64,000 nucleotides of DNA from an uncultured Prevotellaceae bacterium (GTDB lineage Bacteria; Bacteroidota; Bacteroidia; Bacteroidales; Bacteroidaceae), in NCBI GenBank assembly GCA_946415645.1, contig CAMKTJ010000001.1, forward strand, positions 1-64,000, in the 5' to 3' direction. The notes beneath the pieces are model-generated. The model was given only the letters and a program-made list of their open reading frames with translations, did no database searches and was not told the origin of the DNA. The position numbers and the translations under genes were made by a program. The stretch's first letter is position 1. Each line of letters starts with the position of its first letter. Below, piece after piece: positions 1,401 to 30,873 of this stretch.

Positions 1401-1493
1401 AGGAACACTTTAACATAAGTGCAAGTTTCACGTGAAACAAAATTATGCTACACGCCTGAAAATCAACAGATAACACAATTGAAATAAAAGCAT

Positions 1494-2024
1494 ATGAACA
1501 ATCCAAAATTACTTGAAAACCTAAGGGTGATACCCAATTTTCCCAAGGAGGGAATTATGTTTCAGGACATCAGCACACTCTTTGATAAAGCCGAATGCCT
1601 GAAGATAATGTGCGACGAAACTGTAGACCTATACAAGGATAAAGGAATCACAAAAATCGTTGGAATAGAGAGTCGTGGGTTCCTTCTGGCAAGTGCTGTT
1701 GCAAAAGAACTGAATGCTGGCGTTGTTATGTGCAGAAAACCTGGCAAATTACCTGGTGAAACTGTACAAATGACCTACGAAAAGGAATATGGAACAGATA
1801 CTGTATGCATCCATAAAGGCAGTATCTCTGAGGACGATGTAGTATTGTTGCATGACGATTTGTTAGCAACAGGTGGTTCGATGAAAGCGGCCTATGATCT
1901 GGTAAAGATGTTTAATCCCAAGAAAATATACATCAACTTCATTATAGAACTTACTATAGAAGGATTGCATGGACGCGATGTATTCGATAAGGATGTAGAA
2001 ATAACTACCCTATTGAAGGTATAA
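1494..2024 (+). CDS. apt: adenine phosphoribosyltransferase
   Basis: 176 aa; IPNFPKEGIMFQDISTL and the PRPP loop VVLLHDDLLATGGSM. Confidence 0.95.
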   Translation: MNNPKLLENLRVIPNFPKEGIMFQDISTLFDKAECLKIMCDETVDLYKDKGITKIVGIESRGFLLASAVAKELNAGVVMCRKPGKLPGETVQMTYEKEYGTDTVCIHKGSISEDDVVLLHDDLLATGGSMKAAYDLVKMFNPKKIYINFIIELTIEGLHGRDVFDKDVEITTLLKV

Positions 2025-2045
2025 ACCAAGAAAAGCAACAAAAGA

Positions 2046-3878
2046 ATGGCCAACTTATCGGAAAAAGAGAAGATTCAAGCCTATCTGAAGAGTATTGTGC
2101 TTAGCATGCCAGAAAAACCTGGCTGCTACCAATACTTCGATGAAAATGGCACAATCATATACGTTGGCAAAGCAAAAAAACTAAAGAGAAGAGTATATTC
2201 TTACTTTAGCAAAGAGCACGAGAATAGAAAAACAGCTATTCTTGTCAGTAAAATCAGAGATATCAAATATACCGTCGTAAATACCGAAGAAGACGCCCTT
2301 TTGTTGGAAAATAACCTGATAAAAGAGTGGAATCCCAGGTATAATATCCTCCTAAAAGACGGAAAAACCTACCCTAGCATCGTTGTAACCAATGAATTTC
2401 TGCCTCGCATCTTCCAAACCAGGAAAATCAACAAGAAATTTGGCACCTATTTTGGCCCATACAGCCACGTTCCAACGATGTATGCCCTACTGGATCTGAT
2501 TAAAAACCTGTACCCCCTAAGAAGATGCCATGAAATCATCACTCCAGAGAGCATCGAGAAGGGGAAACACAAGGAATGTCTGGAATACCATATAAAGAAC
2601 TGTAAAGCACCTTGTACGGGCCGGCAGAGCGTTGAGGAATACCTAAAGCATATTGCAGAAGCCAAGGAAATCCTGAAGGGAAATACAGCCGATTTGCAAC
2701 GCCAGATGATGGCAGAAATGAAGCAACTGGCCAGCGAACTGAGGTTTGAAGAGGCAGAAGTTATCAAAAAGAAGTACATGCTGCTGGAGAACTACAGAAG
2801 CCGTAGCGAGGTGGTAAGCAATACTCTGCACAACATAGACGTCTTCAATATAGAAAGCGACGAGAAGGTAGCCTACATCAACTTCCTGCACGTTACAAAT
2901 GGCTGTATCAACAAGGCATTTACCTTTGAATATGAGAAGAAAATGCAGGAAACCGACCAGGATCTGCTGGTTATGGGAATAGTTGAAATGAGGCAAAGGT
3001 ATGGTAGTGAAAGTAAGGAAGTTATAGTTCCGTTCCCCGTGGAACAATTCACGCAAAGCTTTAAGTTAACTGTTCCACAGAAAGGCGATAAAAAGGTGCT
3101 TTTGGACCTTAGCCGGCAAAACGTACTACAATACAAAAAAGACCGCATCAGCCAGGCCGAAAAGCTGAATCCGGAGCAGAAATCCACCCGTCTGATGAAA
3201 GAGCTACAGGATGCCTTACAGTTGCCTACCCTACCCATGCAGATAGAGTGTTTTGACAACTCTAACATCAGCGGAACAGATGCCGTTGCAGGCTGTATAG
3301 TCTTCAAGAAATGCAAGCCCAGCAAACAAGACTATCGCAAATACATTATAAAGGAGGTACAAGGCCCTGACGACTATGCCAGCATGCAGGAGGTGGTAAG
3401 ACGCAGATATAAGCGTATGATAGAGGAAGGAAGCGCCCTACCCGACCTTATTATTACGGATGGAGGAAAGGGCCAAATGGAGGTCGTAAGGAAGGTTGTA
3501 GAGGACGAATTAGGCCTGCAAATACCCATTGCCGGATTGGCTAAAGACGACAAGCACAGGACCAATGAACTGCTCTACGGATTTCCTCAGCAAGTGATAG
3601 GATTAAAGACTGACAGTCCCCTATTCCGCCTGCTGACACAGATACAGGACGAGGTACACAGATATGCTATTACCTTCCATCGCGACAAACGCAGTAAGCA
3701 TCAGATTGCCAGCGAGTTAGACACCATAGAAGGTATAGGACCAAAGACTAAGGAACTGCTCCTGAAGAAGCTTCATAGCGTGAAACGTATTAAGGAAGCA
3801 GAGAAGAGCGCTTTGGAGGAGCTTATAGGCCCATCTAAAGCACAAATCATATACAATCACTTTCATTCTATAGGCTAA
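2046..3878 (+). CDS. uvrC: excinuclease ABC subunit C
   Basis: 610 aa; N-terminal GIY-YIG (PGCYQYFDENGTIIYVGKAK), UVR region, RNase H-like ECFDNSNISGTDAVAG, C-terminal HhH. Confidence 0.97.
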   Translation: MANLSEKEKIQAYLKSIVLSMPEKPGCYQYFDENGTIIYVGKAKKLKRRVYSYFSKEHENRKTAILVSKIRDIKYTVVNTEEDALLLENNLIKEWNPRYNILLKDGKTYPSIVVTNEFLPRIFQTRKINKKFGTYFGPYSHVPTMYALLDLIKNLYPLRRCHEIITPESIEKGKHKECLEYHIKNCKAPCTGRQSVEEYLKHIAEAKEILKGNTADLQRQMMAEMKQLASELRFEEAEVIKKKYMLLENYRSRSEVVSNTLHNIDVFNIESDEKVAYINFLHVTNGCINKAFTFEYEKKMQETDQDLLVMGIVEMRQRYGSESKEVIVPFPVEQFTQSFKLTVPQKGDKKVLLDLSRQNVLQYKKDRISQAEKLNPEQKSTRLMKELQDALQLPTLPMQIECFDNSNISGTDAVAGCIVFKKCKPSKQDYRKYIIKEVQGPDDYASMQEVVRRRYKRMIEEGSALPDLIITDGGKGQMEVVRKVVEDELGLQIPIAGLAKDDKHRTNELLYGFPQQVIGLKTDSPLFRLLTQIQDEVHRYAITFHRDKRSKHQIASELDTIEGIGPKTKELLLKKLHSVKRIKEAEKSALEELIGPSKAQIIYNHFHSIG

Positions 3879-8131: not shown

Positions 8132-10921
8132 ATGCCCAAACTCTATCTTTTAGACGCTTATGCCCTTATTTACAGGGCGTATTATGCCTTTTTGAAGAAC
8201 CCCAGAATTAACTCGAAGGGAGAAAACACATCGGCCATTCTTGGCTTTGTGAACACCCTGGAGGAAGTTATACAGAAGGAGCACCCCACCCATCTGGGCG
8301 TTGCCTTCGACCCTTCTGGAGGCACATTCCGACATGAAGCCTACCCTGAATATAAAGCACAACGCGAGGAGACGCCAGAGGCTATCCGCTTTGCCGTACC
8401 TATTATAAAAAGGTTGCTTCAGGCATACAACATCCCTATTCTGGAAGAGCCCGGCTACGAGGCCGACGATGTGATAGGCACCCTATCCCATCAGGCAGAT
8501 CAGCAGGGGATAGATACCTATATGATGACGCCCGATAAGGACTACGGACAATTGGTAACAGAGCATGTAAAGATGTACCGTCCTGCCGTCGGAAAGAATG
8601 CCGAAGAGATTCTGGGCCCTGCTGAGGTAAGCCAAAAATGGGGTATCTCCTCCCCTACCCAAGTTATTGATATACTCGGACTTATGGGAGATGCTGTGGA
8701 CAATATCCCTGGTTGTCCTGGTGTAGGAGAGAAGACAGCCTCTAAGTTGGTTCAGGACTTTGGCAGCATAGAGAATCTGATACAGAACACAGACAAGCTG
8801 AAAGGCGCTCTGAAGGAAAAGGTAGAGAACAACATAGAGCAGATAAAGACCAGCAAATGGCTGGCCACCATCAAGACAGATGTACCCATACAGTTGGATA
8901 TGGAGATGCTCAAGGTGGAGGAACCCAACCAAGAAGCCTTGCAGAAAATCTTCGAGGAACTGGAGTTCCGTACCCTTATGCGCAAGAAGATAGCATCCCC
9001 TACTCCACTTCCGGCTTCCAAGCCCGAAAAAAAAGGAAATGCCATACAAGGCGACCTATTCAGCGGATTTGGTGATGAGGGCGAGACAGCAGAAGGTGCT
9101 GAGGAGACAACCATCAACAACGGCATGCTTCGTTACAGCAAGGAAACAGCTGATTATCAATTGGTTGATACACCAGAAAAGATGGACACCCTTGTGGCTA
9201 CCCTACAAGGAGCCAAAGAGATATGCCTGGATACAGAAACCACCAGCACAGATCCCATTCAGGCACGTCTGGTAGGCCTTAGTTTCAGCATTAAAGAGGG
9301 ACAGGCCTGGTATGTTCCTGTATTCGAGAACCAAGAGGCTGTAGAGCGCTTCCGTCCTGTCTATGAGAACCCTAATATAATAAAGGTAGGACAGAACCTG
9401 AAATACGACCTGCAGGTGCTGCAGAACCACGGCATAGAGCTGCAGGGGCGCATGTTCGACACCATGATTGCCCATTACCTACTCCACCCCGAAATGCGAC
9501 ATGGAATGGATTATCTGGCAGAAGCCTATCTGCACTATCAGACCATCCATATTGATGAGCTTATCGGAACAGGTAAGAAGCAGAAATCTATGGCTGACCT
9601 GAGTCCTGAAGAAGTCTGTGCCTATGCCTGCGAAGATGCGGATATCACACTGAGACTGAAGAACTTATTTGCTCCAGAACTGGAGAAAGAAGGACTGACA
9701 GACCTCTTCTGGCAGATAGAAATGCCACTGATGCCCGTCCTGGCCTATATGGAACGCAACGGTGTATGCATAGATACCAAAGGACTGAAGGAAACCTCTG
9801 TGCTGTATTCTCAGGAGATGCAACGCATAGAAGAAGAGATATACCAGCTGGCAGGCGTACACTTCAATATTGCCAGTCCTAAGCAGGTAGGCGAAATCCT
9901 CTTCGACCAGATGAAGATTACCAACAAGCCCAAAAAGACAAAGACGGGTCAGTATGCTACTACGGAAGAGATTCTAATCAGCCTGAAGAGCAAGAATCCT
10001 ATTGTCGGTAAGATTCTGGAATACAGGGGATTAAAGAAACTGCTCAATACATACATTGACGCCCTTCCCCTCTTGATAAATCCTGAGACAGGACATATAC
10101 ATACCTCGTTCAATCAGGCTGTGACCACAACAGGACGACTCTCTTCCTCTAACCCCAACCTACAGAATATCCCTGTCAGGGACGAACAAGGAAAAGAGGT
10201 CAGAAAAGCCTTTATACCAGAAGAGGGCCAGGAGTTCTTCTGTGCCGACTATAGCCAGATTGAGTTGCGTATTATGGCTCATCTGAGTGGCGATGAGAAT
10301 CTGATAGAAGCCTTCAATGCAGGACAGGATATCCATGCAGCCACAGCAGCCAAAATATTCCACAAGACCCTAGAGGAGGTCTCCAGCGATGAACGTCGTA
10401 AGGCCAAGACAGCTAACTTTGGTATCATCTATGGTATCTCTGCCTTTGGCTTGGCAGAGCGTATGGACGTTTCCAGAACAGAAGCTAAGGAGCTGATTGA
10501 CGGCTACTTCCTGACTTATCCGGGTGTGAAGGAGTATATGGACAAGAGCATTGCTATGGCTCGCGAGAAAGGTTATACAGAGACCATCTTCCGCAGACGT
10601 TGCTACTTGCCAGATATTAACTCCAACAACGCCAATGTCCGTGGTAATGCAGAGCGTAATGCCATCAATTCTCCCATCCAGGGAAGTGCTGCAGACATCA
10701 TAAAGATTGCTATGATTCGCGTTTACCAGCGTATGAAAGAAGAAAAGCTGCGCTCTAAGATGATTCTGCAGGTGCACGACGAACTTTGCTTCACCGTTGT
10801 GCCTGAGGAGAAGGAACGCCTGGAAAAGATTGTGATTGAGGAGATGCAGGCAGCATGCCAGATGCGTGTGCCCCTCATAGCCGACACAGGGTGGGGTAGC
10901 AACTGGTTAGAGGCCCACTAA
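8132..10921 (+). CDS. polA: DNA polymerase I (5'-3' exo, 3'-5' exo and polymerase domains)
   Basis: 929 aa; LDAYALIYRAYYAF, DTETTSTDP (exo I), DYSQIELRIMAHLSGD, QVHDELCF. Confidence 0.98.
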   Translation: MPKLYLLDAYALIYRAYYAFLKNPRINSKGENTSAILGFVNTLEEVIQKEHPTHLGVAFDPSGGTFRHEAYPEYKAQREETPEAIRFAVPIIKRLLQAYNIPILEEPGYEADDVIGTLSHQADQQGIDTYMMTPDKDYGQLVTEHVKMYRPAVGKNAEEILGPAEVSQKWGISSPTQVIDILGLMGDAVDNIPGCPGVGEKTASKLVQDFGSIENLIQNTDKLKGALKEKVENNIEQIKTSKWLATIKTDVPIQLDMEMLKVEEPNQEALQKIFEELEFRTLMRKKIASPTPLPASKPEKKGNAIQGDLFSGFGDEGETAEGAEETTINNGMLRYSKETADYQLVDTPEKMDTLVATLQGAKEICLDTETTSTDPIQARLVGLSFSIKEGQAWYVPVFENQEAVERFRPVYENPNIIKVGQNLKYDLQVLQNHGIELQGRMFDTMIAHYLLHPEMRHGMDYLAEAYLHYQTIHIDELIGTGKKQKSMADLSPEEVCAYACEDADITLRLKNLFAPELEKEGLTDLFWQIEMPLMPVLAYMERNGVCIDTKGLKETSVLYSQEMQRIEEEIYQLAGVHFNIASPKQVGEILFDQMKITNKPKKTKTGQYATTEEILISLKSKNPIVGKILEYRGLKKLLNTYIDALPLLINPETGHIHTSFNQAVTTTGRLSSSNPNLQNIPVRDEQGKEVRKAFIPEEGQEFFCADYSQIELRIMAHLSGDENLIEAFNAGQDIHAATAAKIFHKTLEEVSSDERRKAKTANFGIIYGISAFGLAERMDVSRTEAKELIDGYFLTYPGVKEYMDKSIAMAREKGYTETIFRRRCYLPDINSNNANVRGNAERNAINSPIQGSAADIIKIAMIRVYQRMKEEKLRSKMILQVHDELCFTVVPEEKERLEKIVIEEMQAACQMRVPLIADTGWGSNWLEAH

Positions 10922-19769: not shown

Positions 19770-20381
19770 TTATATAAATATTATTCCAAAAAATCCACAC
19801 AATATACCTACCAGCGTGCCTACCAGCACCTGTGCAAGGCTATGTTGCAACAGCACCATACGACTGGTCATAACACAGCCCGACAGCAGGATTGTGCCAC
19901 ACAACCACCAGATGGGGTTGAAGCCGAAGATGGTAGAGTAGGCCACCAAGCCTCCTATAACGGCACCAGAGCCGGCCGAGTGCATACTCACCTTCCAGAA
20001 CATGTTTATGATGATGCAACACGTCTGTACCATCAGGGACACAAACAGGATAGCCGTTATGAAACGAGGCATGTGCATACTGTCCAGCAGATACATACAG
20101 CACAGGTAGCTCAGGAAGTGAATGGCATAGGGCACAAAGCGCTTGTGACGCTCGCGCAACTCCTGCAGTCGCCATCCCAGCAAACGACGGTACAGATAGG
20201 TTGTCAGCACGGGCAGCAGAACGGTAAAGAAGTACACAACGCCCAATACCATCAGTCGGAATGCCCAAGGAAACATGCTCATATACGTAAACGTGAGCAG
20301 TATGATGGTTCCTACGGTAGGGTAGTACATGGGTCGGAATATACTACTGAATCCTCTGGCTATGACTATATGTTTTCTCAT
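19770..20381 (-). CDS. phosphatase PAP2-family-like integral membrane protein
   Basis: 203 aa, multiple TM; SMHSAGSGAVIGGLVAY and SRMVLLQHSLAQVLVGTLVG resemble PAP2 motifs. Confidence 0.65.
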   Translation of the reverse strand: MRKHIVIARGFSSIFRPMYYPTVGTIILLTFTYMSMFPWAFRLMVLGVVYFFTVLLPVLTTYLYRRLLGWRLQELRERHKRFVPYAIHFLSYLCCMYLLDSMHMPRFITAILFVSLMVQTCCIIINMFWKVSMHSAGSGAVIGGLVAYSTIFGFNPIWWLCGTILLSGCVMTSRMVLLQHSLAQVLVGTLVGILCGFFGIIFI

Positions 20382-20390
20382 TTATTCTGA

Positions 20391-20414
20391 GCGGTTAGCG
20401 GTTAGCGGTTAGCG
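20391..20414. repeat. heptamer array (GCGGTTA)n
   Basis: GCGGTTA x3 plus partial, between PAP2-like gene and rpoN. Confidence 0.85.
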
Positions 20415-20415
20415 T

Positions 20416-21891
20416 TCACTTACGCATGCGTGCAATTGGTATCTTCATTAACTCCCTATATTTGGCAATGGTGCGTCGGGCTATGTCATAGCCCTTCTGC
20501 TTCAGCAGAGAGGCCAGCTTCTCATCGCTTAGAGGGTTCTTTTTGTCTTCTGCGTCTATCAGTTCCTGTATAGATGCCATCACCTGTCTCTGGGTTGCCA
20601 TCTCTGCATCGTCCTTCTGCACGGCCTTATGGGTAAAGAAATGCTTCAGGGAATAGATGCCGAAGGGTGTCTGTACGTATTTGCTGTTGCAGACACGGCT
20701 GACGGTACTGATGTCGTAACCAGCCAGCTCCGACACATCCTCCAGTTTCATGGGCTTTAGCAACGTATCATCTCCTTCCAGGAAGAAGGGCCTCTGCAGC
20801 TTTATGATGGCGTTCATAGTCCTGATCATACTCTCCCTGCGTTGGGCAAGGGCATCTATGAAGAGCTGACCACGCTCTACGTACTCGCGTGTGAACCTTA
20901 TGTCCTCCTGTACAGCCTTGGTCAACTGACTATCCTTTAGCTTGGCATAGGCCTGTAGTTTCTCTGTGGCATCCGGACTTATCATCAGGGCCGACCCATT
21001 GCCGCCATTCAGCTGTACGGTGATGTGGCCGTCCTCGTCGGTATCCACTATGAAGTCGGGCGTTATCTGATGCCCCAATACTATGCTCTTCTCGCCAAGG
21101 GATGAGCCTGGACGGGGATTCAGACGCTTTATCTCGCGTTTCAGTTCCTCTACCTGCAAGGGCGACAGCTTCAGCTTTTGTTGGATGCGTTCCCAGCGCT
21201 TGTGTATGAATTCGTCAAAGTAGCGCTCCATCACCTTCGTCAGCAGGGGGCGATAGGGATTCTTCTCATCGCGCTTTATCTGCAGGAGCAGACATTCCTG
21301 TAATGTACGGGCGCCAACGCCAGCAGGGTCAAACTGTTGCAGGATGCCCAGCACATGCAGCAGCTCGCGCTCATTGGTTTCTATGCCCTGATAGATTTCC
21401 GCCTCGTCCACTATCTGATAGAGTGGCTTCCCTAGCAGGCCGCTGTCGTCCAACTCACCTATCAGGTATTCCAACAGCATACGGTCGCGCTCCGTCAGTT
21501 CGAAGTCGGCCATCTGCTCCTTCAGTTTATCATAGAAGGATAGGGTATCACCGTATTCCACACTCTCAGGCGTTGATTTGGCATAGGTGGGGCGCAACAT
21601 GTAGTCAGGGATATCATCCTCCGAGCGGTAGTCATATTCTGCGCCGGATTCTCCGGATTCGTCAGAATTTCCAGCCTCCCCAGAAAATCCGGATTCGTCA
21701 TCAACCCCTTCCCGCTTCTCCAACCAAGGATTTTCCAGACACTCGTTCTCTATGCGCTGCTGCAGAGCTTCTATGGGCATTTCGGTCAGTCGCACCAACA
21801 TCACCTGCTGGGGCGAAAGCGTCTGCACCTGCACCTGCTGCTGCGCCTGTACTTGTACTTGATTTTGTGTCTGTCGGTTGTCTTGTGCCAT
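20416..21891 (-). CDS. rpoN: RNA polymerase sigma-54 factor
   Basis: Gln-rich N-terminus, GVGARTLQECLLLQ, RPFFLEGDD, C-terminal RpoN-box-like ARRTIAKYRELMKIPIARMRK. Confidence 0.95.
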   Translation of the reverse strand: MAQDNRQTQNQVQVQAQQQVQVQTLSPQQVMLVRLTEMPIEALQQRIENECLENPWLEKREGVDDESGFSGEAGNSDESGESGAEYDYRSEDDIPDYMLRPTYAKSTPESVEYGDTLSFYDKLKEQMADFELTERDRMLLEYLIGELDDSGLLGKPLYQIVDEAEIYQGIETNERELLHVLGILQQFDPAGVGARTLQECLLLQIKRDEKNPYRPLLTKVMERYFDEFIHKRWERIQQKLKLSPLQVEELKREIKRLNPRPGSSLGEKSIVLGHQITPDFIVDTDEDGHITVQLNGGNGSALMISPDATEKLQAYAKLKDSQLTKAVQEDIRFTREYVERGQLFIDALAQRRESMIRTMNAIIKLQRPFFLEGDDTLLKPMKLEDVSELAGYDISTVSRVCNSKYVQTPFGIYSLKHFFTHKAVQKDDAEMATQRQVMASIQELIDAEDKKNPLSDEKLASLLKQKGYDIARRTIAKYRELMKIPIARMRK

Positions 21892-22090
21892 ATCTAATGC
21901 GAAGGTACGACAATTTCCTAATACAGACAACGAAAGCACCCAATTTTTTATTCGAGAGAGGGATTCCCCGATTTTTATTTCTATTAATAAAAGTTAAATT
22001 CTGACAGAATGGAGAAGTTTTTATGCTTCTTTTTAGGCATTGCTTTCCCTTGCCACATAATTTTGCAGCAGAAAACAACACAAACGCGAT

Positions 22091-22549
22091 ATGAAAACAA
22101 CGAACAGACGAGAGTCAATCCTCAGCAAGACGGAATACGACATTATGTCCATCATCTGGGACATCAACCACTCTGTCTCAGCACGCGAGATCTACGACCA
22201 GCTGCCAGAGCCTAAGCCTGCCTACACCACCTTGGCTACGGAGATGCGCACACTCTATGAGAAAGGTTTTGTTGACCACTTCAAGAAAGACGGCGAGGGC
22301 AAGACGCATCATTATATGGCTAGGGTAGGGCGAGCCGAATACGTTCGCAAGGCTATGCACGATGTCAAGCGCACCTTCTTCGGAGGCAGCCTCCGCTCTA
22401 TGCTCAGCTACTTCATTCGCGAAGAAGAGATTTCGGAGGAAGAATTAATAAGCTTCCTGCACGAATTAGAGGAGGCCCCCTCCGACTCCCCCTTTGGGGG
22501 AGTGAACGAACGCTCAACTCTAAACTCAGATACTGACTCTAAACAATAA
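22091..22549 (+). CDS. BlaI/MecI-family winged-helix repressor
   Basis: ILSKTEYDIMSIIWDINHSVSAREIYDQLPEPKPAYTTLATEMRTLYEKGFVDH. Confidence 0.9.
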   Translation: MKTTNRRESILSKTEYDIMSIIWDINHSVSAREIYDQLPEPKPAYTTLATEMRTLYEKGFVDHFKKDGEGKTHHYMARVGRAEYVRKAMHDVKRTFFGGSLRSMLSYFIREEEISEEELISFLHELEEAPSDSPFGGVNERSTLNSDTDSKQ

Positions 22550-22594
22550 ACACTCAATAATCACTCCCCCAAAGGGGGAGACGGAGGGGGCTTT

Positions 22595-24052
22595 ATGTCA
22601 CAACTACTCATCTACGCAATCAAGTCGGCCATACTGCTAACGTTGCTGTTTGTGCCTGGTATATTCCTGATTTTCAGGGAGAAGATGTTCCGTTTCAACA
22701 GGTTGACGTTGCTGGCTATCCTTGTGCTGAGCCTGGTATTGCCGCTCTGCAACTTCAGTCTTATCTCTATGGATACCATGCCAGCCGTACAGACCTTAGA
22801 GAAAGGTTTGCTGGAAATGGGAGTACCCGTCGAGATGCCAGGCCTCACCCCATACCCCTCTCCCGTGGGCGAGGGGAACCTGGAGAAACCTTTTCCCTGG
22901 TTCTACGTCGTAAGCATTCTGTATGCCATCGGAGCCCTTACCATCTTAGGCATCCGCTTACGCGAGGTACTCTCTATGGGACGTATCATCCGAAGGGGAA
23001 GTATCTGGACGAAGGACGACCCCTCTGGTATCCGCATCTATTGCCATGCAGAGAATGTGGCACCCTTCAGTTGGCTGCGTAGCATTGTAATCAGCGAGAA
23101 AGACTACATAGAGAGCGGACGCGAGATTATCCTGCACGAGAAAGCTCATATCCTCTACCGTCACTCCCTGGACATCATCCTGCTGACCCTCGTAGAGGCC
23201 ATCCAGTGGTGGAATCCCTTTGCTTACCTATTAGGCATCTATATGCGTGATGTACACGAGTACGAAGCGGACGACTATGTCCTCCGCGAGGGCATTTCCG
23301 CTCATTCCTATTCCCAATTGATAATAAAGAAGGCTGTTGGCGCCAGCACCTATACTTTTGCAAACAATTTTAATCACAGTCTAACAAAAAAAAGAATCAG
23401 TATGATGCTTAAGACAAATCCCCATCGGAGCAGACGCAGCCGCGTGCTGTACCTGCTGCCCATGATTGCACTGGCCCTCAGCGCCTTTGCCACCTCAGAG
23501 TTCAGTAAAGCAAGTTCAGTCATCGAAGATGTAGTGCAAACGCCCATTCCGGATGACAAAGAAATGGCGGTAGAAATTTATATTAACAGTAACCACGAAG
23601 CTACCCTATTCACCCTTGATGGCAAAATAATGGATCCTGTGGAAGGAGAAAAGTTTCTGAAAGGTCGCTTACGCGAAGGTGTAAAGGCAACCGTAAATCT
23701 TACAACCGAGGTTGCACTACCCAAAGTGGAACGGGAGATTAAGAATCTCACCAATCCTAACCTTACCATCAACTATAAGGTTGTTCCTAAAGAAGATGCT
23801 TCAGACAAAACGGGTAACATCCGCATTCACATCGACAGCGAAGGAAAACTGTTCAGTAGCATAGAAGGTGCAGAGTTGAAACCCATCACACCCGTAGAGC
23901 TGATGCAACTGATCAGCAAATACAAAGACACAGAATCCATCATCAGTATCACCACTGATAAAAAAATGGAACACTTGGAACAAGTGGCAAAGGAAGCCTG
24001 CCGTAAGAATAATCTATTGAAAATCAATTATTCGGTACTAAACAAAGAGTAA
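22595..24052 (+). CDS. M56-family (BlaR1/MecR1-like) membrane metallopeptidase
   Basis: Hydrophobic N-terminus, zinc motif ILHEKAHILYRHSLDIILLTLVEAIQWWNPFAY; follows BlaI-like gene. Confidence 0.9.
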   Translation: MSQLLIYAIKSAILLTLLFVPGIFLIFREKMFRFNRLTLLAILVLSLVLPLCNFSLISMDTMPAVQTLEKGLLEMGVPVEMPGLTPYPSPVGEGNLEKPFPWFYVVSILYAIGALTILGIRLREVLSMGRIIRRGSIWTKDDPSGIRIYCHAENVAPFSWLRSIVISEKDYIESGREIILHEKAHILYRHSLDIILLTLVEAIQWWNPFAYLLGIYMRDVHEYEADDYVLREGISAHSYSQLIIKKAVGASTYTFANNFNHSLTKKRISMMLKTNPHRSRRSRVLYLLPMIALALSAFATSEFSKASSVIEDVVQTPIPDDKEMAVEIYINSNHEATLFTLDGKIMDPVEGEKFLKGRLREGVKATVNLTTEVALPKVEREIKNLTNPNLTINYKVVPKEDASDKTGNIRIHIDSEGKLFSSIEGAELKPITPVELMQLISKYKDTESIISITTDKKMEHLEQVAKEACRKNNLLKINYSVLNKE

Positions 24053-24070
24053 CATCACCCCAATATGCAA

Positions 24071-24103
24071 AGCAGCCCAAGGACATCCCCTGGGCTGTTT
24101 TTT
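24071..24103 (+). terminator. Rho-independent terminator after M56 gene
   Basis: CAGCCCAaggacatccccTGGGCTG followed by TTTTTTT. Confidence 0.85.
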
Positions 24104-24158
24104 TATCCTACCCCACGACAAAATTTTGGGGAAGAAAGTAAAAAAAATTCTAAAATTC

Positions 24159-24190
24159 TTGGAGAGAACTGAACAAATGCATTATCTTTG
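24159..24190 (+). promoter_or_regulatory. Bacteroidota-type promoter of the rSAM/lipoprotein operon
   Basis: TTG(G) at 24159, about 21 nt, TATCTTTG at 24183-24190; ATG at 24227. Confidence 0.6.
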
Positions 24191-24226
24191 TATGCGAAAA
24201 TACACATTTTAAAGACTAAAAAGGGT

Positions 24227-24688
24227 ATGAAAACAAAAATTTATCGTTTGTATGGCGCCGTCCTGTCGGTTCTGCTTTCTGTTTTAGGGTTCAGCAGTTG
24301 CTCAGAAGATGATTATCCATGTGAATACGGTTCTCCTAATGCCGACTACGTCATTGGTGGTATCGTAACCGATGAGGAGGGGAATGAAATCAACGGAATC
24401 TTGGTATCAGCTGAATCATACCAAGATGTGAGTGACGGAAGATATTGGTATAATCACGCCTCAAAGAAGACAAACTACCAGGGTGAATATTATCTTTCAT
24501 ATAGAGAATATGGAATTAATACAAAATTAATTGTTCAGGACGTTGACGGTGAGGCCAACGGAGGAGAATTCGCCAACGATACCATAGATATTGACTACGA
24601 ATCAGCCATACAAACTAAAAAGGGCGATGGCAAGTGGTATGGTGGCGTTTATAGCATCACCCAGAATATCAAGCTGAAGAAGAAATAA
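24227..24688 (+). CDS. putative lipoprotein of the rSAM/lipoprotein system
   Basis: Lipobox GFSSC; EYGSPNADYVIGGIVTDEEGNEINGI; immediately precedes rSAM gene; resembles TIGR04134 as I recall it. Confidence 0.8.
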   Translation: MKTKIYRLYGAVLSVLLSVLGFSSCSEDDYPCEYGSPNADYVIGGIVTDEEGNEINGILVSAESYQDVSDGRYWYNHASKKTNYQGEYYLSYREYGINTKLIVQDVDGEANGGEFANDTIDIDYESAIQTKKGDGKWYGGVYSITQNIKLKKK

Positions 24689-25767
24689 TGAAGGCCACGC
24701 CTCTGACCCTTCGGAAGAAGCTGGCCCTTGAACTCTGGCGACAGAAGGAGAACATCCTCAGGAAGGAGCACCCGCTGAAGCAGCTCTTCTGGGAATGTAC
24801 ATCGCGTTGCGACCTGAAGTGCCGCCATTGCGGCAGCGACTGCAAAATGCAGCCCGAGAGCAAGGATATGCCCAAGGAGGACTTCCTGCGCGTACTGGAC
24901 AGCATTGCCCGTAAGACCGACCCGCACAAGGTCTTCGTCATCATCACAGGTGGCGAGGCGCTGATGCGTAAAGACCTGGAGGAATGCGGACGTGCCATCT
25001 ACCAGAAAGGCTTCCCATGGGGATTGGTCACCAACGCCCTGCATCTTACGCCACAGCGATGGATAAGCCTCCAGAAGGCAGGCATCCACACCATGACCAT
25101 CAGCCTGGACGGCTTGGAGGAAGACCACAACTGGATGCGAGGCAACGGGCAGAGCTTTCAGATGGTCAGCAAGGCCATAGATATGCTGGTGGCCAAGAAG
25201 GGGTTCGTCTTTGACATAGTAACCTGCGTGAACCGTCGCAACTACACGAAGCTGAACGATATCAAGGAGTTCCTTATCAGCAAGGGCGTAAAGAGCTGGA
25301 GGCTCTTCACCGTCTTCCCTGTGGGACGTGCTGTCAACGACCCCGATATGAAGCTCACCAACGAGGAATTCCGTGGTGTCTTTGATTTTATAAAACGTAC
25401 GCGCGAGGAAGGTCGTATTCGCGCGGATTACGGATGCGAGGGCTTCCTGGGCAATTACGAGGGCGATGTGCGTGACCATTTCTTCTCTTGCCAAGCAGGT
25501 ATTTCCGTAGGCTCCGTGATGGCCGACGGCTCCATTGCCGCCTGCGCCAGCATCCGCTCAGATTACAATCAGGGCAACATCTACCAGGACGACTTCATGG
25601 AGGTGTGGGAGAAGCGCTATGCTCCCTACAGAGACCGCGAATGGATGCGCACAGACGAGTGCAAGGACTGCAAATACTTCCGCTATTGCCGTGGAAACGG
25701 CATGCATCTGCGTGATGGCAACGGCAAACTGCTGCTTTGTCACCTGAAAAGGATACAGCAAGCTTAG
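24688..25767 (+). CDS. radical SAM/SPASM protein of the rSAM/lipoprotein system
   Basis: CTSRCDLKCRHC cluster motif, GGEALMRKDLEECG, C-terminal Cys-rich SPASM (CQAG...CASIRSD...CKDCKYFRYCRGNGMH); resembles TIGR04133. Confidence 0.88.
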   Translation: MKATPLTLRKKLALELWRQKENILRKEHPLKQLFWECTSRCDLKCRHCGSDCKMQPESKDMPKEDFLRVLDSIARKTDPHKVFVIITGGEALMRKDLEECGRAIYQKGFPWGLVTNALHLTPQRWISLQKAGIHTMTISLDGLEEDHNWMRGNGQSFQMVSKAIDMLVAKKGFVFDIVTCVNRRNYTKLNDIKEFLISKGVKSWRLFTVFPVGRAVNDPDMKLTNEEFRGVFDFIKRTREEGRIRADYGCEGFLGNYEGDVRDHFFSCQAGISVGSVMADGSIAACASIRSDYNQGNIYQDDFMEVWEKRYAPYRDREWMRTDECKDCKYFRYCRGNGMHLRDGNGKLLLCHLKRIQQA

Positions 25768-25782
25768 TTTACATTCACAATA

Positions 25783-25813
25783 CAGCCCCGAAGGTCGACC
25801 TTCGGGGCTGCTA
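25783..25813. terminator. bidirectional hairpin terminator between convergent genes
   Basis: Perfect palindrome AGCCCCGAAGGTCGACCTTCGGGGCT. Confidence 0.8.
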
Positions 25814-25836
25814 TTTATATGAGTGAATAGGAGAGA

Positions 25837-26619
25837 TTAAAACAGAATTGAGATCTTGCCCCAGTGGGTAGTGCCACTAGCGTTACCATTGACAATATAG
25901 TCCAGATTGTAGCTTAGCGCAAAATGTCCCCCTATCTCAATGCCAGCGCAGAAATCAAGACCGAAGCAGTCAGCATCACCCTTCAGCCTGCCCCAGCCGG
26001 AAATATACGAATCCAGATAAACATGGGTATAGCCAGGTGTAACCTCAGCAAAGAGTCTGCAAGGCTCAAGTTCGGGTGTGTATAATCTAATTCCCAATGC
26101 CCTAACATTAATGATACCCATGCTACTAGGGCCATCATAACCATGCCAGCCAGACATATAGGATACACCTGCAACGTTTATTCCGACATACGGATTCAGC
26201 TCACGCCTTAGCATCAGTCCTACACCCCATGCGTCTTGAACGAGGAAGTCAAACTGACAGGTCATTTTCCTGCGACCACCACAAACTATACCTGTTAAGG
26301 GAGAATCGTCCGGATCCTGAGAACCGAAGCGCTGAGTATTACCGTTCTCATAACGGACATAGAACATATCAGAACTCTTAGCAACGTGCTCTTCGCCGCT
26401 ATTGTCACCGTACAACCGATACTTTACCTCGTTGGGAGTAGCGCTGAGAACTACAACTTTCTTTTGTTCAAGGTTCTTGAACATCAGGATATCCTGAGCT
26501 TTCAGGCTTACAGAAGAAAAAGAAAGAGCCACCAGAAGTAATACGTTTCTTACATAAGCCTTGCTCATGAAGGCTTTTAGTCTTGGGCTCTGAATGCCCA
26601 GTGATGTGTTTTTACTCAT
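25837..26619 (-). CDS. exported outer-membrane-like protein of unknown function
   Basis: Signal-peptide-like N-terminus, glycine/aromatic alternating C-terminal region ending in ISILF; start at MSKNTSLG preferred. Confidence 0.6.
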   Translation of the reverse strand: MSKNTSLGIQSPRLKAFMSKAYVRNVLLLVALSFSSVSLKAQDILMFKNLEQKKVVVLSATPNEVKYRLYGDNSGEEHVAKSSDMFYVRYENGNTQRFGSQDPDDSPLTGIVCGGRRKMTCQFDFLVQDAWGVGLMLRRELNPYVGINVAGVSYMSGWHGYDGPSSMGIINVRALGIRLYTPELEPCRLFAEVTPGYTHVYLDSYISGWGRLKGDADCFGLDFCAGIEIGGHFALSYNLDYIVNGNASGTTHWGKISILF

Positions 26620-26845
26620 CTTGACAAAAAAAGTTAAATTTACGTTTTTGCGATACAAAGATATGAAGAATTTCCGAAACCGTGTACCTCTTCTCCCAAT
26701 TATTTGCAAACTAGATATAAAAAAAAGAATGATAAGAGGTAGTTTTACACTAGAAAAAATCTGTACTACACTATTCTGGCTTCAGTAAGATATTGAAATA
26801 TCTTTACACAGAAATCAAGCTTTATCAGGCAACAGAAATGGACCA

Positions 26846-27123
26846 ACGAAGGAAAATTTGTTCCCTCACTAGGGAATTTTTGCGCCCTAGTGTAGTAGCG
26901 ATTGTTACTATTAATAGCCGCAAAATGGCGCATTTTACGGGTAATGGGAATGCTTAGAAAAATCAGGACAGAGAGACGCCACCATTCACAGTTTCACAGT
27001 TTCACAGTTTATTTTTAAAGCCCCCACCCGAGGAAAACCTGCGTACTGAATGTTAATATATGTTATTCTCTTCCGAGGGGGTACCCCTTTAATTTTTAAC
27101 TGTGAATTGTGAAAACTGTGAAT
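26846..27123. repeat. dispersed intergenic repeat family A, copy 1
   Basis: Matches 53608-53938: CTCACTAGGGAATTTTTGCGCC, TTCACAGTTTCACAGTTTCACAGTTTATTTTT, ACCCGAGGAAAAC, TTCCGAGG..GGTACCCC, AACTGTGAA. Confidence 0.85.
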
Positions 27124-27195
27124 ACACCATTTCCCCCTTATTTCTACAAATGAATATTAAATAACCTGCGTAATTGTTAATTAATGTCTTTATGC

Positions 27196-27227
27196 TTGGA
27201 CGGGTATATCAGAAAATAGTATATTTG
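27196..27227 (+). promoter_or_regulatory. Bacteroidota-type promoter
   Basis: TTGG at 27196, TATATTTG at 27220-27227; 36 bp upstream of ATG 27264. Confidence 0.6.
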
Positions 27228-27263
27228 GGGTAGAGAAACCACAAAACGAACATAAATAGCAAG

Positions 27264-28100
27264 ATGAAAACAAAGAAATCGCAGTATGTAGGCTCTATAG
27301 AAAGGGAATCCATAACGGTTACAATCCTTTTACTGTTGGCAGCCTCACTGCTACTGACAACATCATGTTCATCGACTTCTAAAGTCGCAACTTCCAACAC
27401 CAAGACTTCCAAGAGCGCTTCCCTAGAAGGTCACAAATATGTAGATCTGGGCTTGCCCAGCAAGACATTATGGGCTACCTGCAACGTAGGAGCCCAGAAG
27501 GCCGAGGAGTATGGCAACTTCTATGCCTGGGGCGAGACACAACCCAAGAACGAATATAGCTGGAAGACCTATACCCTGCCTTATGAAAAATCATTAGCCA
27601 GCAAGCCCGTACAGGGCGATAAGGGTTTCACGGATAAGTGGACTTACCATCGTCTGACGGGCCCCTATACCATGGATACAGAGACCAAGACCCTGCAGCC
27701 CGAGGATGATGCCGCCACCATAAACTGGGGACAGAAATGGTCGACTCCCACACTGGAGCAATGGCGCGAGCTCTGCGATACGACCCTCTGCCGATGGACG
27801 CAGCAGAAGAAAGGCTTCTTGGTTACCAGCAAGAAGAACGGCAAGAGCATCTTCCTGCCCGCCTGCGGCATGTGTAATGGAACGGAAGCGCCAGAGACAT
27901 TCCTGAACGAGGGCGATAGCGTAAGATACGATGGCCTCTATTGGTCAGGCACACTATCTGGCAAGAATAAGCCTGGCAACGAAGTTTCGTATCTGCGTTT
28001 CAATACGGGCTATCAGCGAATGAACCTTCCGTATATAACTTCTGCGTATGAACTCTACCTTGGCATGAGCGTTCGGCCAGTAGCTAAACTTCCTGAATAA
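27264..28100 (+). CDS. lipoprotein with FISUMP-like (Fibrobacter succinogenes major paralogous) domain
   Basis: Lipobox LLTTSC; HKYVDLGLPSKTLWATCNVGAQKAEEYGNFYAWGET...WSTPTLEQWREL. Confidence 0.8.
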   Translation: MKTKKSQYVGSIERESITVTILLLLAASLLLTTSCSSTSKVATSNTKTSKSASLEGHKYVDLGLPSKTLWATCNVGAQKAEEYGNFYAWGETQPKNEYSWKTYTLPYEKSLASKPVQGDKGFTDKWTYHRLTGPYTMDTETKTLQPEDDAATINWGQKWSTPTLEQWRELCDTTLCRWTQQKKGFLVTSKKNGKSIFLPACGMCNGTEAPETFLNEGDSVRYDGLYWSGTLSGKNKPGNEVSYLRFNTGYQRMNLPYITSAYELYLGMSVRPVAKLPE

Positions 28101-28124
28101 ACCTCTAACATTCACAGATAAAAC

Positions 28125-28157
28125 AAAGGACTGTCCATATTGGGCAGTCCTTTGCTG
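28125..28157. terminator. hairpin terminator between convergent genes
   Basis: AAAGGACTGtccatattgggCAGTCCTTT stem-loop. Confidence 0.75.
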
Positions 28158-28179
28158 TTTCTATTATTGCGTACAATAA

Positions 28180-28578
28180 TTACTTTTTACGCTTCCATGT
28201 CTGAGTCTCGTAGAAGACACCAAGGTAACCTCTTACCTTCAGTTCTTCACCCTCCAGCCACATGGTGCACTTGTAGCTCTTGCCGTTCTTGGGATTGTAG
28301 ATCTTGCCGCCTTCCCATTTGTCCTTACCTTTCTGAAGGCCAGAGAGTATGTTCACACCCATCAGCTTGCGGCTCTGCAGCTTCTTGTCGGGGTTGTGGG
28401 TATCCTTTGTCTCGGGACCCTTCTGCAACCAGATAATCTTGCCGTTCATCTTGTCGCCGGCCTGATAGATTTCTACTTGGGCATCGCCAGCCTCTGTGTA
28501 CCACTTACCCAAAACATCCTGTGAATAGCCTGCTACTGAAACCAGCGCCATGGCTATCATCAACATCATTTTCTTCAT
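28180..28578 (-). CDS. DUF2147-like exported protein
   Basis: 132 aa, signal peptide; DVLGKWYTEAGDAQVEIYQ...GKIIWL...GGKIYNPKNGKSYKC. Confidence 0.85.
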   Translation of the reverse strand: MKKMMLMIAMALVSVAGYSQDVLGKWYTEAGDAQVEIYQAGDKMNGKIIWLQKGPETKDTHNPDKKLQSRKLMGVNILSGLQKGKDKWEGGKIYNPKNGKSYKCTMWLEGEELKVRGYLGVFYETQTWKRKK

Positions 28579-28611
28579 TTTACCTTAAACTTTTATTTAT
28601 AACATTATATC

Positions 28612-28785
28612 ATTGAAGTTTCGTATATTTCTCAACTTCCTTGGAGTTAAGGAGTTAAGTAGTTATCGCTTCGCTCGTCCTTCGGACAGTAGTTAAGCCG
28701 TTACTATGCTCAACTGTAATCTCTATGACAAAGAAATGGCTTAACTACTTAACTACTGTCTACTTAACTACTTCAGAAAATTGAA
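28612..28785. repeat. dispersed palindromic element family B, copy 1 (core orientation 1)
   Basis: About 174 bp matching 31180-31353; arms rich in AGTTAAGTAGTTAAG; 38-bp core 28700-28737 is inverted relative to copy 2. Confidence 0.9.
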
Positions 28786-30873
28786 TTACTTTAGTATATT
28801 ATCGTCAAAGACAATATTATCTAATTCCTTGTCAATTTTAAAAAAAGGTAAATCTACCTTTATGGTCTCACCAGGCTTAATGGTGTAGGTCTTCAGGGTA
28901 TTGTTCCTACTTACTACATTTACCACCAACTTGTTAGCACCCTTTCTTACCACCTCTATGCCGAAGGGGGCCCATGTGCAGGCGTAGATATTATCCAAGC
29001 GATAATTGTCCCACTCGGTAGGCATCTGAGGGGTGAGGGTGAAGGTACGTAAGCCTGTAGGACGGAAACCCAGCAAGCCCTCTGTGATGATACGGCAATA
29101 GAGTCCGCTTTCAGCTGCCAGATGGCGCTGTCCACCCTCTGGCCAAGCCTCTACTACGTAGGGAACATGCTCGCCCAGAAGACGGATGGTAGAGAATTTC
29201 TTCAGGTATTCCAATGCCTTATCGGCATACCCGGCAGCAAAGGCACCACGGAGGCCGTAGAGGGTAGAGCGGTCCCAGAATATCTTGTCGCCACTCTGCG
29301 AGAGCATACCGTTCTCTGTCCACAGCTGGGGCGAGAACATAGCCTCCAGCGTTCCCTTGGCTCTGTCATAAATACCCATCGTCAGGGGAATACATATCCA
29401 GGAGCGCAACACATCATTCCCCTCATAGTATCTGTACGTATCGTACCCCTCGACTTTTGCATGAAAGAATTTATCTATATTCTTGCGCAATGTTGCTGCC
29501 TGCTTCCTGTAGGTAGCAGCATTAGCCAAACTCTTAAACCCTTTAACTTTTAAACCTTTTAACTCTTCAAGGAGATAGGCACTACTCAGAAGGGCATCGT
29601 AGTAAAGGCTGCTGGTACAGAGGTTGGCATCTCCACTGGGCAGACGATGCTCCAACTCGTCGGCATCGCTGGCAACAACGCCATTCTTATTGAGCTTGCG
29701 ATGGCAATATTCCAGACACCATTCTATCAGGGGCCAAACATCCTTGGCTATCTTCTCATCACCTCTCTCTAAGCAATAACGGCTGGCTCCGTATGCCAAC
29801 ATAGCTGCATCGCCACGGTCGAAAGGACCAAAGACATCATCGCCTCCACAGATAATACTCCAAGGAACGAATTTATATTCAGGGTTGATGTATTTCAGGT
29901 ACCACTTCCAAGTGGTCATGGCACTCTCGTTACCCTTATCGTAACCCAAGAAGGGGAAGAAGGGATTGACATATTCAGCCTGATCATTGCACCACATAGC
30001 AGCATAATACGACTCACCTCCAGGGGCGTGCATCAGTCCTCCCTGGGTGTAGAAGATACTCTCGCTGGTACGAATCTTACTCATCTCAAAGAGCGTATTG
30101 ATGGTGTTATCTGGACAGACAAAACGCAATTTCTTACTGGTGACTTCCTCAACAAACTCACCTCTTCTCTTCAGTTCCTGCTCTGCGTCTATAGCTGTTT
30201 CCTTTTCATCAGCAGGGGCATAAGCCTGTACAGAAGCGTAGAAGTTGGTATAATCACCTGGCTTCAAGGTTACCTTCCAATCCTGCTGAAACTCTGTCTG
30301 AGCCACCAGACAATAACTGCCACGGGTACCCTCTTCCTTGTTGGTAGTACGCACAGAACGAAGGGCAGGCACAATGATGGTCTCCACCTTATTGCCAATA
30401 TTCTTGATGGTATACTTCTCGCATACAGCAGCCTTCTGAGTGCTGGGGAAGAAGATACGCGTCAGTTCAAAGTCGTTGTTATCACCCTTCAGCGTTCCAT
30501 AGACAGTCAACAGGCCGTTGATAGTAACAACCTTCACCTCCTGCTCTGTCAGGCTTCTATTGTTGGCAGTCATTCCCTTCAGGAAATCCACATCACATCT
30601 GGGCATCCAGCTGGCATGCGTATTATTGGGAATGGTTCTGAGCATAGGGAATACCAAGTGACGATTCATGTGGAACTGCTTCTGGCCATCTACGCCCCAA
30701 TAGTAAACCACAGAGGCACGTAGGCCCGACATCTCTATATGGTCGTTGTAGGGCAGCTTGCCGTCTGTTGTATTCCATCTTACAGAATGGTTACCTTGTA
30801 TCTGCCATCTGTTTTCTACTGCCTGAAGTGTCAGGGCACAGAGAAGGGAAAAGAAAAGGATAAAATGTCTCAT
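28786..30873 (-). CDS. exported six-hairpin glycosidase-like protein
   Basis: 695 aa, signal peptide; GGDDVFGPFDRGDAAMLAYGASRYCLERGD, LEHRLPSGDANLCTSSLYYDALLSSAYL (alpha/alpha toroid type). Confidence 0.7.
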   Translation of the reverse strand: MRHFILFFSLLCALTLQAVENRWQIQGNHSVRWNTTDGKLPYNDHIEMSGLRASVVYYWGVDGQKQFHMNRHLVFPMLRTIPNNTHASWMPRCDVDFLKGMTANNRSLTEQEVKVVTINGLLTVYGTLKGDNNDFELTRIFFPSTQKAAVCEKYTIKNIGNKVETIIVPALRSVRTTNKEEGTRGSYCLVAQTEFQQDWKVTLKPGDYTNFYASVQAYAPADEKETAIDAEQELKRRGEFVEEVTSKKLRFVCPDNTINTLFEMSKIRTSESIFYTQGGLMHAPGGESYYAAMWCNDQAEYVNPFFPFLGYDKGNESAMTTWKWYLKYINPEYKFVPWSIICGGDDVFGPFDRGDAAMLAYGASRYCLERGDEKIAKDVWPLIEWCLEYCHRKLNKNGVVASDADELEHRLPSGDANLCTSSLYYDALLSSAYLLEELKGLKVKGFKSLANAATYRKQAATLRKNIDKFFHAKVEGYDTYRYYEGNDVLRSWICIPLTMGIYDRAKGTLEAMFSPQLWTENGMLSQSGDKIFWDRSTLYGLRGAFAAGYADKALEYLKKFSTIRLLGEHVPYVVEAWPEGGQRHLAAESGLYCRIITEGLLGFRPTGLRTFTLTPQMPTEWDNYRLDNIYACTWAPFGIEVVRKGANKLVVNVVSRNNTLKTYTIKPGETIKVDLPFFKIDKELDNIVFDDNILK

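Follow-up and report, generated by a model that had tools for sequence, protein, structure and literature searches.

Introduction

Among the described systems close to the locus considered here are the spliceases, in which the SPASM enzyme PlpX excises tyramine at an XYG site and leaves a ketoamide (PMC10533398, PMC11002830). PlpX needs no RiPP leader and accepts leader-free substrates; one tested tag, derived from PlpA2, was PIRPLYGLPI, and GYGVVFP tags were also built on PlpX recognition motifs, so that a proline at position +3 from the tyrosine is not required by known substrates (PMC10533398). The enzyme belongs to IPR026482 (PMC11002830), and spliceotide ketoamides have been reported as protease inhibitors (PMC11117315, PMC10373908). 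In spliceotide systems the formation of the ketoamide entails a loss of 135.0757 Da, there is a PlpY-type RRE partner, and the precursors carry a Nif11 or nitrile-hydratase leader. We take IPR026482 to be the same family as TIGR04103, which agrees with our data because the type of precursor (with a Nif11 leader) matches.

Several other SPASM systems bear comparison. The TIGR03913 GDL-motif/DUF1843 maturases have a homologous enzyme and several small tandem precursors, some of which carry YG near the N-terminus (PYGVAI), though YG is variable there, with YA and YM also seen, and DUF1843 peptides are not secreted lipoproteins. The anaerobic sulfatase-maturating enzyme anSME (4k39) has the closest solved fold and is a SPASM enzyme acting on an entire exported protein ahead of its export, but it converts Cys or Ser in CxPxR to formylglycine and is only 21% identical to the enzyme studied here. 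PqqE, SuiB, SkfB and MftC, SPASM enzymes with a comparable fold or score, also modify peptides, but they depend on dedicated precursor peptides, mostly on an RRE as well, and have different substrate motifs.

The two families of interest here, TIGR04133 (rSAM_w_lipo) and TIGR04134, are already known and named in NCBIfam, where both are listed as 'hypoth_equivalog' with neither function, site nor chemistry given. In the literature library that was searched, no paper names either of them.

Results

Organisation of the two-gene unit

We analysed a 64,000-nucleotide stretch of DNA from an uncultured Prevotellaceae bacterium (the window), in which a lipoprotein gene adjoins a radical SAM gene (Table 1). 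A preliminary description had likened the pair to TIGR04134 and TIGR04133, and it was correct in this, as both proteins exceed the NCBIfam cut-offs by a wide margin: against cut-offs of 425 and 39.8 bits respectively, the enzyme scores 576.8 bits over profile positions 1–350 of 350 and the lipoprotein scores 105 bits. The pairing of the genes is also identical to that of the named families. The lipoprotein TAA (24686–24688) overlaps the ATG of the enzyme gene (24688) in the TAATG at 24686–24690, as already noted; an alternative TTG start at 24188 would lengthen the lipoprotein by 13 residues. The promoter-like element proposed earlier is borne out by TTGG (24159–24162) and TATCTTTG (24183–24190), which at a spacing of 20 bp match the Bacteroidetes −33/−7 pattern; the window holds 7 copies of TTGG-N18-22-TANNTTTG, where 0.93 would be expected, and 0 of 100 shuffles gave as many. 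The palindrome downstream is perfect, as claimed, but measures 28 bp rather than 26; its stem has a folding energy of about −26 kcal/mol, with a weak T run on the 3′ side.

Just upstream, at 22091–24052, lies a gene pair for a BlaI-type repressor (PF03965) and an M56/BlaR1-type peptidase, and this operon ends in its own hairpin and T7 (about 24072–24104). BlaI/M56-like genes were seen near the TIGR04133 enzyme in just a couple of other loci. When six other genes of the window were tested for occurrence beside enzyme homologues, each gave 0–2 matches and none was conserved, so the two-gene unit can be regarded as isolated, in agreement with the preliminary description; comparison of the homologous loci gave no conserved third gene in the unit. 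An Rfam scan of positions 20000–30000 returned no RNA element. Further downstream (27264–28100) is a predicted 278-residue lipoprotein with a YVDLGLPSKTLWATCNVGA-type domain, presumably FISUMP-like, and its own promoter-like pair (TTGG/TATATTTG); a Pfam search of this protein gave nothing over the cut-off.

Table 1. Features of the lipoprotein/radical SAM unit, in window coordinates.
Feature	Position	Strand	Basis
Bacteroidetes-type promoter-like element, TTGG ... TATCTTTG	24159..24190	+	sequence and shuffle count
TIGR04134 lipoprotein, 153 aa (ATG start), proposed substrate	24227..24688	+	NCBIfam, lipobox LGFSSC, AF2
LGF motif in signal peptide, residues 20–22, candidate recognition element	24284..24292	+	LG[FIY] enrichment
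Codon of lipidated Cys25, signal peptidase II site	24299..24301	+	invariant in partner alignment A2; lipobox partly selected for
E-Y-G-S-P-N-A-D-Y, residues 33–41, proposed modification site	24323..24349	+	conserved Tyr34-Gly35-x-Pro37, aromatic at +7
Beta-sandwich domain (CarboxypepD_reg/transthyretin-like)	24341..24688	+	AF2 and Foldseek
TIGR04133 radical SAM/SPASM enzyme, 359 aa	24688..25767	+	NCBIfam, Pfam, AF2
CX3CX2C radical SAM motif (C41, C45, C48) and C52, CDLKCRHCGSDC	24808..24843	+	invariant in 91 aligned homologues
SPASM auxiliary-cluster region: C250, C268, C286, C325, C328, C334, C351	25435..25740	+	invariant in 91 homologues
Perfect palindrome of 28 bp, terminator-like hairpin	25783..25810	.	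sequence CAGCCCCGAAGGTCGACCTTCGGGGCTG, folding

The enzyme and the lipoprotein

The enzyme matches Radical_SAM (PF04055, 68.4 bits) and SPASM (PF13186, 30.0 bits) in Pfam. Its AF2 model (pLDDT 94) consists of a radical SAM barrel and a SPASM domain, with a short N-terminal helix before the barrel and no RRE domain, and the closest solved folds are anSME, SuiB, SkfB and PqqE. When set against TIGR04103 and MftC comparators, TIGR04133 is missing one SPASM ligand cysteine and has C52 and C250 in addition; comparable cysteines occur at L181 and L230. In a tree of related enzymes TIGR04133 forms a separate clade, and the deep branches are not resolved, so that a phylogenetic tie between TIGR04133 and the spliceases was set aside. 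AhbD (TIGR04545) was sought in Bacteroidales as an outgroup for the tree and none was found. Three of the gathered loci (L172, L173 and L174) encode distant radical SAM enzymes, 31–34% identical and below the HMM cut-off, that carry CxLxCKxCTC in place of HCGS and have no YG partner nearby; these probably represent a different family.

In the AF2 model of the lipoprotein (pLDDT 92) a signal helix (2–22) is followed by a loop (23–37) and a beta sandwich (38–145), for which Foldseek gives weak matches to beta sandwiches of the transthyretin and intradiol-dioxygenase type. Acidic residues right behind the lipidated cysteine are a feature looked for in Bacteroidetes lipoproteins that are exported to the cell surface, and the window protein has CSEDD at this place. 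At least two D/E at positions +1 to +6 after the cysteine are found in 69 of 132 long partners compared to 31 of 189 background lipoproteins, but in just 1 of 37 short partners.

Partner genes at related loci

We gathered 165 related loci, 80 of them named, with one place present twice (L028 = L175). An adjacent partner gene is found at about 156 of the 165, counting truncated ones, and none was found at five (L030, L072, L091, L123 and L143); of the rest, one runs into a contig edge, and three are L172–L174, which are not family members. Regular occurrence of the enzyme without its partner, which the preliminary description had named as grounds for abandoning its proposal, is thus not what is seen. 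The partner usually lies upstream, but in the closest relatives (L041–L043, 87% identical) and in Phocaeicola (L104–L106) it is downstream, the gene order being flipped and the pairing kept.

Four partner architectures can be distinguished: beta-sandwich lipoproteins of about 120–190 residues like that of the window, mini-lipoproteins of 51–119 residues that hold little beyond a signal peptide, a tether and the motif discussed below, signal-peptidase-I proteins of about 240–300 residues, and a membrane-anchored form (L093) with the motif YGPPPTEY. The beta-sandwich domain, missing from the 51–119-residue partners, is dispensable in these, and many partners score below the TIGR04134 cut-off or are without its beta domain. 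In the signal-peptidase-I proteins the predicted mature N-terminus is Gln-Tyr-Gly (A|QYG), where the glutamine agrees with the Bacteroidetes 'Q-rule' (PMC5837995). One locus (L028/L175, G129:C61) has five tandem YG partner genes, mini or full, beside a single enzyme, and one peptide (L131) has three YG motifs. The genome of L028/L175 also has further YG lipoproteins elsewhere (L206 and L208) and one that has lost YG (L207). The partner is thus not always the upstream, full-size lipoprotein that was first assumed, since it may also be downstream, tiny, non-lipidated or present in several copies.

A conserved Tyr-Gly element and a signal-peptide motif

Among 62 aligned full-size partners, which were selected partly by YG motif and lipobox, the only invariant columns are Cys25, Tyr34, Gly35 and Pro37. 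Because of this selection we built an HMM solely from the beta domain, downstream of the motif, and counted partners within 2.5 kb of an enzyme; the test is less biased, though not free of bias, since the training rows carried YG. It identifies 139 enzyme-adjacent partners, all on the strand of the enzyme, and most of the upstream ones overlap the enzyme gene or stop no more than 50 bp short of it. YG stands directly before the domain in 136 of the 139 and YG.{1,2}P in 131, compared to YG..?P in 5 of 189 other lipoproteins from the same loci, which served as background. The three that lack YG are L077 (at a contig edge), L167 (a CYA variant) and L171 (a weak match that adjoins a gene with CYAPAP). 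YS replaces YG in three mini-partners (L110, L113 and L119).

The same HMM matched 25 proteins away from an enzyme, and several of these lack YG (L207, L215, L221, L222 and L225), two of them (L221 in G086 and L225 in G098) in genomes without a member-level TIGR04133 match. Most of the distant matches that do bear YG come from genomes with the enzyme elsewhere or lie beside a broken or contig-end enzyme; the exception is G227, with YG lipoproteins and no detectable TIGR04133 gene. In one broken case (L220/L250, G022:C80, about 9485–10188) a YG lipoprotein lies beside a TIGR04133 gene missing most of its middle, matching profile positions 1–41 and then 248–349 within 400 bp; here the enzyme has decayed and the substrate has been left behind.

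The 128 unique motifs (for instance YGVPPVHY, YGAPPVTF and, in the window, YGSPNADY) have an aromatic residue at +7 from the tyrosine in 102 cases, the position being non-aromatic in about 20% of long partners, and the residue before the tyrosine is E in 72, M in 20 and C in 19. YG is common to all four architectures, and in the mini-partners without a beta domain little else is conserved. Based on these alignments, Tyr-Gly is very probably where the enzyme acts. The preliminary description had pointed to the post-lipobox region EDDYPCEYGSPNADYVIGG and to the lysine-rich C-terminal tail. The former holds as far as Tyr-Gly-x-Pro is concerned, but its cysteine (C32) and acidic residues vary among partners, and short partners have no such tail; neither can therefore be a general site, and both Cys32 and the lysine tail were dropped as candidates.

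A second motif, LG[FIY] in the hydrophobic stretch of the signal peptide before the cysteine, is present in 108 of 169 partners compared to 5 of the 189 other lipoproteins (Fisher p 2e-35, unique sequences) and in most of the signal-peptidase-I partners listed. It is a candidate for a leader-like recognition element.

Comparison with spliceases

Like the PlpX systems, the unit combines a SPASM enzyme with a Tyr-Gly target, here EYG. The PlpX tag, with LYGLPI, fits the partner motif YGxP(xxx[YF]), as does the precursor of a complete TIGR04103 locus that we observed on a plasmid of Nostoc sp. C057 (L227, 4645–6466). The enzyme there scores 853 bits against TIGR04103 (cut-off 725), and the adjacent Nif11 precursor ends in IALYGLPPELF, matching YGxPxxx[YF] with proline at +3 and an aromatic at +7; a 71-residue protein occupies the place where a PlpY-like partner would be expected. 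TIGR04133 is the third- or fourth-best family match of TIGR04103/TIGR03913-type enzymes, and two features recur in all three families, HCGS following the radical SAM motif and a motif of the type G-[YF]-x-G-x-x-E, both missing from the MftC and TIGR04053 comparators.

The differences are also clear. The window enzyme reaches only 124.4 bits against TIGR04103 (cut-off 725) and was therefore not assigned to that family, and its auxiliary-cluster cysteines differ from those of the spliceases. The unit has no gene for a PlpY or RRE partner, and in place of Nif11 or nitrile-hydratase leaders the partners carry Sec/SPII, SPI or TM signals, the proposed substrates being exported lipoproteins.

Another locus (L181 in G165, 1468–3599) encodes a radical SAM/SPASM enzyme that falls between TIGR03913 and TIGR04103 (233 and 218 bits, below both cut-offs), and the next gene encodes a 214-residue protein ending in five KYGYPC repeats and a terminal KYGYPGC. 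It is a candidate for a spliceotide-like system with a repeat core in the window's own bacterial family.

Distribution

TIGR04133 scores above the cut-off in 61 of 295 evenly drawn Bacteroidales genomes, about a fifth, including common gut and rumen genera. A draw of 396 genomes across the phylum gave just three matches, namely the genome of the window, a second one of its order and a third that lies outside the class. None of the viral contigs searched for the enzyme encodes TIGR04133, and phages searched for a related TIGR03913/TIGR04103-like enzyme gave no match. Plasmid pTS1 of the spirochaete Treponema saccharophilum (L226, 4607–6083) carries a TIGR04133 enzyme and a lipoprotein with CYGMPENYY and the signal motif LGI, adjoined on the opposite strand by a gene for an Mpi-family serine recombinase; this is an apparent transfer from Bacteroidota.

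Discussion

The pairing at about 156 of 165 loci and the conserved YG(xP) argue strongly that the lipoprotein is the substrate of the enzyme, as the preliminary description had supposed. We propose, with a probability of roughly 0.5, that the TIGR04133 family consists of leaderless spliceases that work on proteins, here at the Tyr-Gly of the lipoprotein; by analogy with PlpX, the excision of tyramine at Tyr34-Gly35 has about an even chance of being the reaction. The enzyme would act in the cytoplasm on the lipoprotein precursor before export, with the hydrophobic signal peptide and its LGF motif standing in for a RiPP leader. The tyrosine of Tyr34-Gly35-x-Pro would be cut out as tyramine and the chain rejoined to give a ketoamide, after which the modified protein would pass through Sec export, signal peptidase II cleavage and lipidation. 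The electrophilic ketoamide would then be displayed about 8–9 residues from the lipid anchor, near the mature N-terminus, where it could plausibly inhibit proteases covalently while tethered, or act as a reactive tag. The inhibitor role is speculative, but reasonable given the reported inhibition of proteases by spliceotide ketoamides, and the residue before the tyrosine would in that case set the protease preference. The wider picture, in which TIGR04133 represents the Bacteroidales whole-protein spliceases of exported proteins, with a Sec signal peptide as leader and a ketoamide in the envelope, is put forward tentatively, at slightly under even odds.

Since the tree does not group TIGR04133 with TIGR04103/TIGR03913, it is the substrate motif that carries the argument for splicing. 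Counted against it are this lack of a demonstrated sister relationship, the differing SPASM ligands and the missing PlpY/RRE partner, together with the YA (L167, L171) and YS (L110, L113, L119) partners, the five partnerless enzyme loci, G227 and the fact that known PlpX substrates can do without a proline at +3. The enzyme may instead carry out another radical reaction at YG(xP), such as a cross-link from Tyr34 to a neighbour or to the +7 aromatic, an oxidation or dehydrogenation of Tyr or Gly, or an epimerisation. This is a possible though less favoured explanation, which would fit the ligands unlike those of TIGR04103, the 102 of 128 motifs with an aromatic at +7, and the cross-links and oxidations performed by SPASM enzymes of like score or fold (PqqE, SuiB, anSME and MftC). 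However, a three-residue cyclophane needs a C-beta at the third position, where glycine or proline may stand (YGGP, YGPA), the residue at +7 is non-aromatic in about a fifth of long partners, and the sole strongly conserved pair is Tyr-Gly, the signature of spliceases.

It is improbable that YG(xP) serves just for docking, with the enzyme modifying the lipoprotein elsewhere, another protein or a small molecule. The heme and cofactor enzymes AhbD and NirJ2 score about as high as the peptide maturases, and the lipoprotein and the enzyme end up in different compartments, but hardly any residue besides this motif is conserved in the mini-partners, and the repeated YG (L131) and tandem precursor genes (L028/L175), which resemble RiPP cores, typify substrates rather than adaptors. 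A purely structural role as a linker into the beta sandwich, unrelated to the enzyme, is very unlikely: in the model the motif does lie just before the first strand, with the +7 aromatic at its start, but YG persists in partners without the domain and is missing in domain relatives from enzyme-free genomes (L221, L225). The faintest prospect is that the two proteins do not interact and are merely co-regulated, for which one might cite the roughly 3% of loci where the enzyme has no partner; all 139 partners nevertheless share its strand, most upstream ones being within 50 bp or overlapping, and the pair stays together where the order is flipped (L041–L043, L104–L106).

As far as our tools show, what is new is the YG(xP) common to all types of partner, the existence of partners that are mini-sized or carry no lipid, the signal-peptide motif LGF and the proposal of a splicease. 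With Tyr-Gly named as the target and an exact change in mass predicted, work on a hypothetical family comes down to one co-expression experiment. If splicing by TIGR04133 enzymes is true, protein labelling would gain a tool that consists of one enzyme and works without a leader, and the gut microbiota would hold natural backbone-edited, ketoamide-bearing envelope proteins, possibly a set of protease inhibitors displayed on the surface. In many Bacteroidales of gut and rumen, the envelope would then routinely contain backbone-edited (beta-amino-acid) proteins.
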